Position numbers and translations under genes: made by a program. The notes under the pieces were generated by a model that saw only the letters and a list, made by a program, of their open reading frames with translations, ran no database searches and had not been told where the DNA came from. Shown piece by piece: positions 45,117 through 50,499 of a stretch of 64,000 nucleotides of DNA (positions are counted from its first letter, which is position 1; the number at the start of each line of letters is the position of its first letter). Source of the DNA: Gemmatimonadota bacterium (GTDB taxonomy: Bacteria > Gemmatimonadota > Gemmatimonadetes > Gemmatimonadales > Gemmatimonadaceae); the NCBI GenBank assembly GCA_026387915.1, contig JAPLKS010000013.1:186001-250000 (forward strand), given 5' to 3'.

Positions 45117-45470
45117 CTAGGCTCCAGTCGCCAAGGCCTGCATCCAGGTCTTGGCCACGGCATATTCGCGCTGAATGGCGGCCACGCCATTCAGCGCGCC
45201 GTCGTTATCCCCTGTTTTGCCGGCGTGCTCGACCACGGCACAGGCCTCGCCCATAGAGTGCGCGCCGAGTTGGCGGGCGCTGGACTTGAGGGCGTGCGCA
45301 ATGCTGGCCACCTCGCTGACGTTGCCGCTCTCGCGCTCCTCATTGAGCTTGGCAAGCCGTTCCTCGGCAAACTGGATGAAGGTCTGCATCATCATCGCGA
45401 CCATTTCATCACCGCCGACGCTCTTGAGCAGCTCAATGGCCGACTCGGCGTCCTGGGGAACTTGCGACAT
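45117..45470 (-). CDS. histidine phosphotransfer (Hpt) domain protein
   Basis: 117 residues, starting at ATG 45470 (no clear SD). It is a single Hpt four-helix bundle with the phospho-accepting His59 in IAHALKSSARQLGA. Hpt proteins carry phosphate from a hybrid kinase receiver to a response regulator. It lies on the same strand as the hybrid kinase, with tRNA-Ser between them on the other strand, and is the natural candidate partner for that kinase. Confidence 0.88.
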   Translation of the reverse strand: MSQVPQDAESAIELLKSVGGDEMVAMMMQTFIQFAEERLAKLNEERESGNVSEVASIAHALKSSARQLGAHSMGEACAVVEHAGKTGDNDGALNGVAAIQREYAVAKTWMQALATGA

Positions 45471-45601
45471 GGGGGCGTGCTCCGTCGGTGCAGTAGAGTT
45501 CGTTCGATCGGCACGAGGGTGCAGCTGAACGTATTTTGAATCTAGACACCCGCACAAACCTTGCGCCACTAGGCCGCGCCCGTGAGGTTTCGGTGTCTTG
45601 G

Positions 45602-45735: not shown

Positions 45736-46314
45736 TCAGACTGTGCTCGCGTCAGGCGTACCGCTGGGTGTGCTCGGGCCCTTCTTCGCGCCTGATACAG
45801 ACGCGAGCGCCATCGAAACGATGATGGCTTCCTGTTCGAGCACCCGAGCCAGCGTGCGCTGCAACTCCGCGTTGCGCGATTCCAGGTCGCCGTTCAGGGC
45901 GCGAATCGTGTCCCGCTGCAGCTTGATCTCCAGCTGATTGCGCACGCGGAGCCGCAGATGCGTGAGGTTGAAGGGCTTTATCACGTAGTCGACGGCGCTC
46001 ATCTGCAACGCGGCCGTCTGCCGTGCGGAGTCCGCCACGACCGTCACGAAGACGATGGGAATGTCTACGAGGGTTGGGTCAGCGCGAGCTTGTCGGGACA
46101 CTTCGAGTCCGTCGATGTCTGGCAACATGAAATCGAGCAACACCAAATCCGGCAGTTGCTCTTTCATGATGCGCAGGGCGTCGAGCCCGTTGGTGGCGGT
46201 CAGGATCGTATACTGATCCTTGAGGGCGAGGACAATCAGCCGGACGTTCAGCTCCTCGTCATCCACCACGAGGATCAGCGGGGGGCGTTGGGGGGGGGGG
46301 GGGGGGCAGAGCAA
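45736..46314 (-). CDS. receiver domain with coiled coil; probably the C-terminal part of the hybrid kinase
   Basis: 192 codons. A CheY-like receiver (LILVVDDEELNVRLI, phospho-acceptor Asp in LVLLDFMLPDIDG, and VDYVIKPF with the conserved Lys) is followed by a coiled coil (RDTIRALNGDLESRNAELQR). The only start is a rare TTG at 46314 with no SD, reading straight into a proline run encoded by the C17 tract. The next Met lies inside the domain. If the tract had 16 bases, the frame would join the upstream hybrid kinase and make one protein of about 858 residues (kinase-receiver-receiver). I read this as one gene split by the homopolymer. Confidence 0.7.
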   Translation of the reverse strand: MLCPPPPPQRPPLILVVDDEELNVRLIVLALKDQYTILTATNGLDALRIMKEQLPDLVLLDFMLPDIDGLEVSRQARADPTLVDIPIVFVTVVADSARQTAALQMSAVDYVIKPFNLTHLRLRVRNQLEIKLQRDTIRALNGDLESRNAELQRTLARVLEQEAIIVSMALASVSGAKKGPSTPSGTPDASTV

Positions 46315-48313
46315 AGAACTTGACGTGCAGCGGCTTGCTCACATAGCCGTCGAAGCCGGCCGCGAGGAATCGCTCGGCGTCGTCCTGCATGGCGAACGCG
46401 GTGAGCGCGATCACGCGCGTGTGCGCCCCGGTCACGGCCTCACGGGCGCGCAGGACCTTCAGCGCGGCCTGACCGTCCATCACCGGCATCTGGATGTCCA
46501 TCAGCACGAGGTCAAAGGCATCCTCCAAGAGCCGTTGCAGCGCCTCTGCGCCATCGGCGGCTATTTTCACCGTGTGACCCAGTTTTTGCAACAGCGCGCG
46601 CCCTAACGCCTGGTTGATGCGGTGATCCTCCACGAGCAGCACCGTCAGCGGCGCGCCGGACCAGTGGAGCGTCTGCGAAACCCGTTGCGCCGCGTCGATG
46701 CTGGTCACATCGGCCTCGCTCATCTCCAGCGGCAGCAGCACGCGGAAGGTGCTGCCCACCCCCTCCACGCTGTCGGCCGTGACGCTGCCACCCATCAGAT
46801 TGGTGAGCTGGCGGCAGATCGTGAGCCCCAACCCGGTGCCGCCAAACCGGCGCGTGATGCTGTGCTCGGCCTGCGTGAACGGCTCAAAGACCTCGAGCAT
46901 CGCCGAGGCAGACATACCGATCCCCGTGTCTGCCACAAGAATCTCGATCATTATCGTGCTTCCGTCGCGCTCGTGCACGTTCACCGAGACCGTGACGCCG
47001 CCGCGCTCCGTGAACTTGACCGCGTTGCCGACGAGGTTGAGCACGATCTGCGTGATGCGATGCCCGTCGCCGATGAGCTCCGCCGGCACCTCGCTCGCCA
47101 CCGTCAGCTTCAGCGAGAGCATCTTGTCCTCGGCACGCGGACGGATGATCCGTGCGGCGTCGGAAATACACGCGCGCAGGTTGAACGCGGACCGTTCGAT
47201 GTCCACGCGGTCGGCCTCGATCTTCGCCATGTCGAGCAGGTCGTCGATGAGCTGCCCCAACACGGTGCCCGACGTCGCGATGGCCTCCACGGATTCCGCC
47301 ACCTCCGGCGAGAGCACCTCCTCCTGCAGCAGTTGCGTGAACCCAAGGATCCCGTTCAGCGGCGTGCGGATCTCGTGGCTCATGTTGCGCAAGAAGACGG
47401 TCTTCGCGGCGTTGGCGGCGTCGGCCGCTGCGCGCGCCGCGGCGAGCGCCGCCACTTCTGCCATGCGCTCGGTGATGTCCTCGTACATCACCACGAACTG
47501 CCGGGGCAGCCCACGGAACGCGCGCACGCGCAGGTGCCGGTTGATGGTCGGCGAGAAGTACTCCCAGCTCTGCGGTTCGCCGGTCTCCACCACCGACGCC
47601 ATGCGGGCGATCTGCCGCACGTCCGCATCCGGAAAGACTTCGCGGATCGTTCTCCCGATCACGCGTTCCGGCTTGACGCCCACGTGGCGCTCGTAGGCCG
47701 CGTTGGCCTCGAGCACGCGAAAATCGACGACCTGGCCATCCGCGTCCGTGATGATCTCGTTGATGGAGCACCCTTCCTGCATTTCCTCAAACAGCAGCCG
47801 GTGGCGTGCGTCGCTCGCCACGAGGGCGCTATGCTTCTCCACCAGTCCGTTGTGCAGCCGCTGCAGGCGCTGGCTACTCTGCAAAAGGCTCACGTGCGCG
47901 ATCGCGCTCTCGCGTTGCAGCCCAAAGGCCGTTTCGTTGATCCGCTCGAGTTCGGCAATATCGAACTCGGCGAGCAACTGCACCTGCGTCCCCTCCCGCC
48001 ACGCATGCGCCCGCAGGGAGCGTGCGTGGCCGTCGGGATGACCGATCGTCATCAGCCCGCGATAGCCCTGCCCTTCGGCGGCGGCACACGTTAGCGCCGC
48101 AAAGGTCGGCTCGATAAAATACCCAGCCACCAGCGCACCAATCGGCATCGGGTCGTGCGTTTCAAAAAGTCGGCGAAAGCCGGCATTGGTCCACACCAGC
48201 GCGCCGTGCTCATCCACGGTTGCCGCGCAGACGGCTTCCAGCGCCGCCAGTGCTTCGACTGCTTCCAGTGCTTCGAATCCTTCCGTTGTGTCCCGCGCGG
48301 AGAGGCGCGTCAT
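46259..48313 (-). CDS. hybrid sensor histidine kinase (PAS-PAS-HK-receiver), frameshifted at its 3' end
   Basis: 684 codons as sequenced. The order is a PAS-like region (about 25-120), a PAS domain (about 165-285), a coiled coil, a HisKA domain with His313 in FLRNMSHEIRTPLNG, an HATPase domain with N box NLVGNAVKFT and G boxes DTGIGM and GGTGLGL, and a receiver with Asp606 in LVLMDIQMPVMDG. It has no membrane helix, so it senses in the cytoplasm. The last 15 codons read through a C17 run into proline and end early. It overlaps the B12-binding gene by 4 nt (ATGA) and is probably its direct partner. With one base fewer in the run it would fuse to the second receiver. Confidence 0.9.
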   Translation of the reverse strand: MTRLSARDTTEGFEALEAVEALAALEAVCAATVDEHGALVWTNAGFRRLFETHDPMPIGALVAGYFIEPTFAALTCAAAEGQGYRGLMTIGHPDGHARSLRAHAWREGTQVQLLAEFDIAELERINETAFGLQRESAIAHVSLLQSSQRLQRLHNGLVEKHSALVASDARHRLLFEEMQEGCSINEIITDADGQVVDFRVLEANAAYERHVGVKPERVIGRTIREVFPDADVRQIARMASVVETGEPQSWEYFSPTINRHLRVRAFRGLPRQFVVMYEDITERMAEVAALAAARAAADAANAAKTVFLRNMSHEIRTPLNGILGFTQLLQEEVLSPEVAESVEAIATSGTVLGQLIDDLLDMAKIEADRVDIERSAFNLRACISDAARIIRPRAEDKMLSLKLTVASEVPAELIGDGHRITQIVLNLVGNAVKFTERGGVTVSVNVHERDGSTIMIEILVADTGIGMSASAMLEVFEPFTQAEHSITRRFGGTGLGLTICRQLTNLMGGSVTADSVEGVGSTFRVLLPLEMSEADVTSIDAAQRVSQTLHWSGAPLTVLLVEDHRINQALGRALLQKLGHTVKIAADGAEALQRLLEDAFDLVLMDIQMPVMDGQAALKVLRAREAVTGAHTRVIALTAFAMQDDAERFLAAGFDGYVSKPLHVKFFALPPPPPPTPPADPRGG
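46290..46306. repeat. 17-nt G homopolymer (C17 in the coding strand)
   Basis: Seventeen consecutive G on the plus strand fall at the boundary between two receiver domains of the kinase. A change of -1 or +2 bases restores one continuous frame. Such tracts are either slippage-prone switches or a common sequencing/assembly error. Confidence 0.95.
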
Positions 48314-49401
48314 GTTGCGACTCCGTCGACCAGAGCCGTCGCGGCGCCGACCACCGCGCTCGCATCAACCGCGGTGGCGTCCGCCCCGACTTGTCGCAGC
48401 ACTGCAGCTCCGACCGTATTGATGGCCATTCCGCCGATCATCACCGGGGGCCGCGCGTCGCCGAGGCGTTCGGTGAGTAGCGCAAGGAAGCGCTTCAATG
48501 CAGGGAGCTGCGACTCCAACGTCACGGACATGCCGACGAGATCCGGTTTGAAGGCGATGACCTGCTGGAGGAGCGCCCTCTCGGGCACGTTCGCGCCAAG
48601 GAACTGCACGTGCCAACCGGAGAGATGGAAGGCGTCCGACACCATCTGCAGACCCACGCTGTGATGGTTCCCGGCTACGCATGCGAGCAACACGCGCCGA
48701 TCATTGTCGTCCGCCGGCATTGACCGCGACAGGCCGGCGGCCATCAACGACTGCACGATTGCCGTGGCGAGGTGCTCTTGTGCCACCGACACGACGTTCG
48801 CGTGCCAGCCCTCGCCGATACGGTAGAGCGCGGGCTGCATCAGGTGGCGTTCGACCTCGATGAGCGTCGCGCCGCGGTCCATGCACCCGTTCATCACGGC
48901 CCTCGCGTCGCGCTGGTTGCCGGCCAACAAGGCGTTATGGAACGGAACCGCCTCCGGCCACGACTGGTCTAACACCTCTGTGGCAGTGGGCGTCGTTCCC
49001 GCCGCAAGATACGCGGCGCGCGCCGACCGAAGCGCACCGGCCACGATGGCCCCGTGCGCCACGTCCATGTGCTCGGCGAAGTACTCGGCGAGCCATTCGA
49101 TGGAGAGCGAGAGATGCGCGACTGGCACCGAGCGTGCCGCGAGCACGCCGTGGGTCCAGCGCAGGTAATCGACCATCGACTGCAGGAACCCGAACTCCAG
49201 CACCGGCCGCAGGAACTCGAGGTGAAACTGCAGGTCCTCGCGCGTCGCCTCGCGTCCGCGCGCACCAAATCGCTCGTACTCGGCCGCGTACGTGGCGTGG
49301 AAGCGTGCGGCAACAGCGCGCACCGCGTCATCACGCAGTGACTGGAACTGCGCGACGCCTTCTGGGGAGAGTTGGTGCGTGATCTCGACTTGTTGCGCCA
49401 T
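48310..49401 (-). CDS. cobalamin-binding sensor with CarH-type photoreceptor residues
   Basis: 363 residues from ATG 49401. The N-terminal 140 residues are helical and unrecognised. Residues 145-225 form the four-helix cap, and 235-363 the Rossmann-type B12-binding domain. The cap has Trp199-His200 followed by Glu209-His210: exactly the Wx9EH pattern of CarH, in which the Trp covers adenosylcobalamin, the next His becomes the second cobalt ligand after light, and Glu stabilises the dark state. The lower-ligand motif is NHHSVG (NxHxxG, His247), a variant of DxHxxG. There is no DNA-binding domain. It overlaps the hybrid kinase by 4 nt. It is likely a light or B12 sensor that signals through the kinase; this role is inference from motifs and context. 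Confidence 0.83.
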   Translation of the reverse strand: MAQQVEITHQLSPEGVAQFQSLRDDAVRAVAARFHATYAAEYERFGARGREATREDLQFHLEFLRPVLEFGFLQSMVDYLRWTHGVLAARSVPVAHLSLSIEWLAEYFAEHMDVAHGAIVAGALRSARAAYLAAGTTPTATEVLDQSWPEAVPFHNALLAGNQRDARAVMNGCMDRGATLIEVERHLMQPALYRIGEGWHANVVSVAQEHLATAIVQSLMAAGLSRSMPADDNDRRVLLACVAGNHHSVGLQMVSDAFHLSGWHVQFLGANVPERALLQQVIAFKPDLVGMSVTLESQLPALKRFLALLTERLGDARPPVMIGGMAINTVGAAVLRQVGADATAVDASAVVGAATALVDGVAT

Positions 49402-49776: not shown

Positions 49777-50499
49777 ATGACCTTGGGCACCGTACCACGC
49801 ATCGTCGCCGCAGCGCTATGCCTCGCGCTGTGTCTCGCGCTGCGGGCCGCGCCCGACGCCGAACTCGCCACGATCGCCGCCTGGCTCCCCGGCACCTACG
49901 ACACGTTCGCACAAGCGTCCGCCGACGAGTCGAGCAGCGCGACGTACCAGCATGTGCGCGCGGTGCTCACGGTCACGCCCGTCGCCCTGACGGCACCGGA
50001 TCCGGATGCGTTCGCCTTTTACCTGGAGCAAGCGCTCGAGGGGCAGGAGCGCGAACCCTATCGGCAGCGCGTCATCGTGCTGCGGCGGCGGAACGGCACG
50101 ATCATCAACGAACTCTATCGCCCGCGGGACGCGCGATCACTCGTGGGCTTCGCTGGAGCGACGCCGCTCTCGCTTGGCGATTTCAACCGTGAGGCGGGGT
50201 GTGACGCGTCGTGGGAGCGTGCCTCGGATTCCACGTTCCGCGGTTCGGCCGGTATGCAGGAACGCTGCCCGTCGACGCTGCGCGGCGCGACACACGCGCG
50301 ATCGACGTTCGCGTTGAGTCAGGAGTTCTTCGTGACGCTCGACCAGGGCCTCGGCGACGACGGCGCCGTCCACTGGGGTCCGCCGCTCGGCGTGAAAGGG
50401 CATGTGTTCGTGAAGCGGCCGCATGCGCGAGCGGCAAGCGCCGAGGCCAGCGGCACCGCACACACCACGCCCTCTCGACGCGTGAAAGTAACCGGCTAG
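49777..50499 (+). CDS. exported CpcT/CpeT-family protein
   Basis: 240 residues from ATG 49777, with a perfect GGAGG 7 nt upstream. A signal peptide-like N-terminus is followed by the family pattern AAWLPGTYDTFAQA, EQALEGQEREPYRQRVIVL and a Cys in REAGCDASWE. In cyanobacteria these proteins attach bilins to phycobiliproteins. Here there are no phycobiliproteins; homologues outside cyanobacteria have unknown roles. It is divergent from the B12-sensor/kinase operon, so it may be a regulated output of that system. Family confident; function not assigned. Confidence 0.75.
   Translation: MTLGTVPRIVAAALCLALCLALRAAPDAELATIAAWLPGTYDTFAQASADESSSATYQHVRAVLTVTPVALTAPDPDAFAFYLEQALEGQEREPYRQRVIVLRRRNGTIINELYRPRDARSLVGFAGATPLSLGDFNREAGCDASWERASDSTFRGSAGMQERCPSTLRGATHARSTFALSQEFFVTLDQGLGDDGAVHWGPPLGVKGHVFVKRPHARAASAEASGTAHTTPSRRVKVTG

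Follow-up and report, generated by a model that had tools for sequence, protein, structure and literature searches.

A putative stand-alone photocobilin with reversed domain order, encoded in overlap with a PAS hybrid histidine kinase gene in a Gemmatimonadota bacterium

The window analysed here, 64,000 nucleotides of a Gemmatimonadota contig (GenBank assembly GCA_026387915.1, JAPLKS010000013.1, positions 186,001 to 250,000), carries on its minus strand a photocobilin-type sensor gene (48310..49401, 363 aa, ATG at 49401), the product of which would consist of a photoglobin domain followed by a cobalamin-binding domain (CBD). The end of the sensor gene (stop codon TGA) and the start of a PAS hybrid histidine kinase gene (ATG; 46259..48313, minus) overlap by 4 nt (ATGA, 48310..48313, minus), in agreement with the original prediction. 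That prediction had also described the sensor as "fused" to a kinase pathway; sensor and kinase are, however, two genes. By Pfam, the kinase comprises a PAS-coiled coil, PAS_4, HisKA, HATPase_c and REC, and its N-terminal PAS-coiled-coil module (residues 1-170; 47804..48313, minus) is the element common to the partner genes of relatives. Also on the minus strand lie genes for a receiver-domain response regulator (45736..46314; PF00072, 5e-24) and an HPt phosphotransfer protein (45117..45569; PF01627, 4.6e-13), the latter a candidate operon member only; a tRNA-Ser on the opposite strand lies between the two. Divergent from the sensor gene is a CpeT/CpcT-family (bilin lyase family) gene (49777..50499, plus), whose start was set at the ATG preceding a signal-peptide-like stretch.

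A 17-base C run (46290-46306, minus) marks the kinase/receiver junction. At the same place, a sister MAG (L006, i.e., G066 contig 136) has 12 C and about 80 extra bases upstream, which include a normal kinase C-terminus. Either the assembly has collapsed here or the tract varies in length. Because the L006 junction differs, the 3′ end of the window kinase and the 5′ end of the receiver gene are unreliable, and the window's version of the junction was not relied on. The sensor gene itself differs from its L037 homologue by 80 substitutions at third codon positions and 50 and 33 at the others, a bias which we count in favour of the photocobilin explanation. The L006 sensor gene has a 4-nt deletion, which we count against it. 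In addition, the L005 sensor gene has a one-base insertion inside a G run, which may be a sequencing artefact.

Pfam matches B12-binding_2 (PF02607) at sensor residues 155-222 (1.6e-12) and B12-binding (PF02310) at residues 236-342 (3.6e-20), which, together with structure matches, delimit a CBD at residues 155-342 (48376..48939, minus). No HTH was found in the sensor by Pfam, in line with the earlier claim of a light-type CBD lacking a MerR-type DNA-binding domain. In the whole-sensor AlphaFold model (mean pLDDT 89.6), the CBD comes closest to that of Chloracidobacterium MerR (CtMerR); SasPcob and CarH follow, and methionine synthases are scattered among these matches.

The published light-response signature of B12 photoreceptors consists of the motifs GxxW, EH, GxxH and GxxxP (PMC11796333). 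The sensor contains all four (G196/W199, E209-H210, G244/H247 and G269/P273), and all eight positions, W199, E209, H210 and H247 among them, are invariant in an alignment of 10 homologues from several Gemmatimonadota families. Sequence and alignment place the Wx9EH motif (W199-H200-x8-E209-H210) at 48772..48807 and the G244-NHHSV-G250 motif with the lower-ligand His247 at 48652..48672; W199, H200, E209, H210 and H247 stand exactly where they had been predicted, on the minus strand, which the prediction had left unstated. When the sensor protein is shuffled, Wx9EH alone turns up by chance in 1.1% of cases, and Wx9EH followed by [DEN]xHxxG in 0.016%; among the ORFs of the window that reach 100 aa, no other contains this pair. 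The lower-ligand motif, usually D/ExHxxG, is NxHxxG in the sensor; of the aligned sequences, the four closest carry NxHxxG and the rest D/ExHxxG. Judged from its sequence, the sensor carries a light-type CBD with the complete published signature.

The sensor shares with CarH (Thermus thermophilus, PDB 5C8A/5C8D) the CBD fold and the Trp131/His132/Glu141/His142/His177 set, present as W199, H200, E209, H210 and H247. His200, at the CarH His132 position, is kept in 2 of the 10 aligned homologues and is thus not a family feature. CarH His132 forms the bis-His light state, and we take His200 to be its equivalent in the sensor. Unlike CarH, the sensor has no MerR DNA-binding domain and possesses a photoglobin; its two domains are those found in photocobilins, so that the earlier label "CarH-type" does not hold.

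The N-terminal region, initially regarded as a novel helical domain, is by profile and predicted fold a photoglobin (residues 1-130; 49012..49401, minus), and a CarH without its HTH but with a novel N-terminal domain was rejected for this reason. In phmmer, the C-terminal SasPcob globin aligns with sensor residues 17-117, weakly for the sensor alone (E 0.04). A photoglobin profile built from 18 Gemmatimonadota sequences matches SasPcob (8j2w, 1.4e-11) and AbPcob (8j2y, 1.1e-6) in the PDB, followed by a long run of phycobiliproteins starting at 8.1e-4; taken singly, 5 of these 18 sequences hit the Pfam Phycobilisome model, the best at 4.8e-7. The predicted fold (pLDDT 92.9) best matches SasPcob and phycobiliproteins at TM scores of about 0.7-0.8 by query length, with no Foldseek E-value below 0.001.

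With the SasPcob chain numbering fixed via the CBD anchors Trp61, Glu71-His72 and His108, Asp56 and Trp82 of the sensor fall on SasPcob Asp270 and Trp296, which are key biliverdin contacts (PMC10979010). The register of the alignment is supported by the AbPcob His at the Asp270 position, which falls into the same column, and Asp56 and Trp82 are invariant among the ten aligned globin-CBD fusions. SasPcob His137, a biliverdin salt-bridge partner, is replaced by Ala in the sensor according to the alignment. The only cysteines of the sensor are Cys173 and Cys241, and the photoglobin domain contains none, so that a bilin, if bound, would be held non-covalently, as it is in SasPcob; covalent attachment in the N-terminal domain was ruled out on this ground.

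Thus, the sensor combines a CBD and a photoglobin within one polypeptide, the combination that characterizes photocobilins. The globin is N-terminal and the CBD C-terminal in the sensor and nine aligned relatives, whereas the two solved photocobilins have the CBD first. The CBD-first order is shared by the solved members but is not stated to define photocobilins. From its profile matches and predicted structure, the sensor is best read as a stand-alone photocobilin with reversed domain order. Light-type CBDs are known to be fused to other domains, including a biliverdin-binding domain, at either the N- or C-terminal side (PMC11796333); because fusions occur on both sides there, the reversed order may already be contained in that survey. 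In other relatives, globin and CBD are encoded by adjacent separate genes (L045/L059, L047/L058, L056 and L060).

The closest known system is SasPcob (Saccharothrix syringae, PDB 8J2W/8J2X; PMC10979010), which, like the sensor, has a light-type CBD and a photoglobin with no output domain and possesses the W, EH and lower-ligand His residues, in addition to the matched Asp270 and Trp296. The sensor differs from SasPcob in having the globin first, His200 after the Trp (Gln in SasPcob), NxH in place of ExH, a PAS hybrid kinase gene coupled to its own, and a CpcT-family neighbour. AbDPcob, a photocobilin-diguanylate cyclase (PDB 8J2Y; PMC10979010), contains the same two sensory domains and acts on an enzyme. 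However, it has a fused GGDEF output and a His at the Asp270 position, whereas the candidate output of the sensor is a separate kinase. AerR of Rhodobacter capsulatus, with CrtJ, also has a CBD without a DNA-binding domain and provides a precedent for a CBD photoreceptor working through another regulator (PMC6199135), but it lacks a photoglobin and its partner is a transcription factor. The sensor matches AerR 7te2 weakly (4.8e-4) and has no Pfam match to SCHIC; AerR/SCHIC membership was tentatively set aside. BBAG-2 globins and B12-binding proteins are encoded by separate genes clustered with a bilin reductase (PMC10151467), unlike the sensor, which is a single protein whose gene has a kinase and a CpcT-family gene as neighbours.

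The gene coupling was compared across relatives, all sampled from Gemmatimonadota; a scan of genome contigs yielded two same-genus loci only. On G118 contig 23, a sensor of 80% identity is paired with the same kind of kinase. On G118 contig 28 and in G040, with sensors of 61 and 55% identity, the partner overlaps the sensor gene by 4 nt, has 222-226 aa and shows homology to kinase residues 1-167; it comprises the PAS-coiled-coil and a C-terminal CxxC...HGxCPxC, with no kinase domain. In L039 and L040 a kinase gene directly follows the sensor gene, and in the more distant L056, L058 and L060 the CBD gene overlaps by 4 nt the PAS-coiled-coil kinase gene that comes after it. The short overlap thus recurs in relatives of other Gemmatimonadota families. 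Since the partners share the PAS-coiled-coil module with or without a kinase, this module is the conserved element, and the kinase appears from these genes to be its commonest but not its sole output. Searched against the PDB, the PAS module of the partner returned nothing informative.

The divergent neighbour matches PF06206 at 6.9e-26 (91.7 bits vs. a gathering score of 21), and in the PDB it matches the phycocyanobilin lyase CpcT alone (4o4o, 1.5e-8), which, together with the co-occurrence described below, identifies it as a CpeT/CpcT-family member and putative lyase. Such a gene occurs in 4 of 148 genomes of the bacterial family, namely G000 (the window's genome), G066, G118 (contig 28) and G104, and in all four it lies beside a sensor gene or, in G104, a decayed one; a close sensor or remnant is found in 5 of the 148. 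The chance of the fourfold co-location is about 3e-7 if the genomes are assumed to be independent, which they are not, as they come from two genera, with G066 almost the same as G000. On G118 contig 28, the CpeT-family gene comes after the PAS gene, the two sharing 4 nt (8047-8050 of L036), so that its link with the sensor survives rearrangement. Its product has an N-terminus that, judged by eye, resembles a signal peptide, a feature that fits poorly with lyase action on a sensor in the cytoplasm. In G104 (C15:20062-20913; L062, L068, L072), a decayed sensor gene with stops lies beside an intact CpeT-family gene, which suggests that the CpeT-family protein may serve a function independent of the sensor.

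Elsewhere in the window's genome, a heme oxygenase is fused to a photoglobin-like domain (L043:9506-10777, contig 13), a fusion found again in L066. Downstream with a short overlap follows a CBD protein (L043:10771-11556) with an N-terminal CxxC...HGxCPxC, and this gene pair is a second candidate B12/bilin sensor. PF01126 heme oxygenase was not found in G066 or G040, both with close sensors, so that a biliverdin supply is not general. In the relatives L045, L056, L057, L060, L064, L065 and L040, photoglobin/CBD genes are adjoined by genes for ABM-family monooxygenases resembling HmoB and MhuD, which degrade heme, and such monooxygenases are a possible alternative bilin source. The window's genome encodes a PduO-type cobalamin adenosyltransferase and none of the BtuR/CobO type. 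Control of a photosystem was ruled out, as no reaction-centre gene was found in this genome or in six related ones.

From the combined analysis, we propose that the sensor is most likely an AdoCbl (perhaps also biliverdin) light sensor that would regulate the co-encoded kinase by contact. In the dark, AdoCbl would be bound with His247 below the cobalt and the adenosyl group against Trp199/Glu209/His210, and a CBD dimer would form. Green light, or red light taken up by biliverdin in the N-terminal globin, would break the Co-C bond and loosen this dimer, which may alter its contact with the kinase PAS-coiled-coil module and thereby change kinase autophosphorylation and the phosphorelay. The module is taken as the partner because the genes are coupled. 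Chromophore binding, photochemistry and kinase control are here inferred by analogy with SasPcob and AbDPcob; photocobilins are reported to be capable of acting on an enzyme in trans (PMC10979010).

As a whole, the reading as a stand-alone photocobilin of photoglobin-CBD order that senses light by AdoCbl and biliverdin and controls the co-encoded kinase by contact is, in our estimation, probable. Against it we count the missing kinase in the partners of two close homologues, as well as the non-conserved His200, NxH for D/ExH, and Ala at the His137 position. Its fuller version, in which the reversed-order photocobilin uses AdoCbl and bilin to switch the PAS kinase in trans under both green and red light, with a dedicated non-cyanobacterial CpcT/CpeT bilin-handler, is offered tentatively, with the balance somewhat against it. 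The globin may instead be a structural or interaction module with little or no bilin, leaving light sensing to AdoCbl alone. The low biliverdin occupancy of AbDPcob (PMC10979010), the close relatives without PF01126 and the cysteine-free photoglobin domain point this way, but the Asp270 position, lost in AbPcob, is kept in the sensor and invariant in the fusions, and both the CpcT-family neighbour and the HO-photoglobin fusion in the genome speak for bilin; we consider it unlikely.

The sensor might also respond to the supply of cobalamin or a tetrapyrrole (or to redox supply) and not to light, and report ligand occupancy to the PAS protein. The absence of reaction-centre genes from the genomes checked and the CxxC...HGxCPxC of the L036, L038 and L063 partners, typical of metal or redox sites, are consistent with such a role, which nevertheless seems quite improbable given the invariance of Trp, Glu-His and the rest of the light signature, residues that in light sensors form the wall of the adenosyl pocket. 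Least credible by far is a role as corrinoid protein in a methyltransferase system, the adjacent kinase being there by chance. Weaker matches of the CBD to the MtbC, MtgC and MetH models speak for it, but CarH is the best NCBIfam match of the sensor, at 61.8 bits far under the cut-off of 400; a methyltransferase corrinoid subunit was rejected because the locus has no gene for a methyltransferase partner, and the photoglobin domain and the retention of signalling neighbours across families likewise argue against it.

Photocobilins, a recently discovered class of photoreceptor, and photoglobins are already known, as is the link of the two with B12-binding proteins and heme oxygenase; stand-alone photocobilins have been purified and solved, with regulation via protein contact proposed from in vitro work (PMC10979010). 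The combination of reversed order, overlapping PAS kinase gene and exclusive CpcT-family neighbour is undescribed in the literature examined, which did not include the 2022 photoglobin paper, and our search returned nothing relevant on cobalamin photoreceptors with kinases or in Gemmatimonadota. The natural targets of stand-alone photocobilins are not established, and the conserved short overlaps name a candidate, i.e., the PAS-coiled-coil module, usually kinase-borne. The exclusive CpcT/CpeT-family neighbourhood and the HO-photoglobin fusion tie non-cyanobacterial photoglobins to bilin handling. Because the sensor and partner module are small with no obvious membrane segments, light-controlled phosphorylation is directly testable.

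Two further proteins were noted. A CarH/LitR-like MerR-CBD protein is encoded in the same genome (L044:6728-7717, minus; contig 4), which thus holds an ordinary CarH-type candidate besides the sensor. At L051:3960-4742, adjoining a CBD gene, a stand-alone protein has two tandem photoglobin-like domains, in the second of which the Asp56 position is lost and Trp82 is kept.
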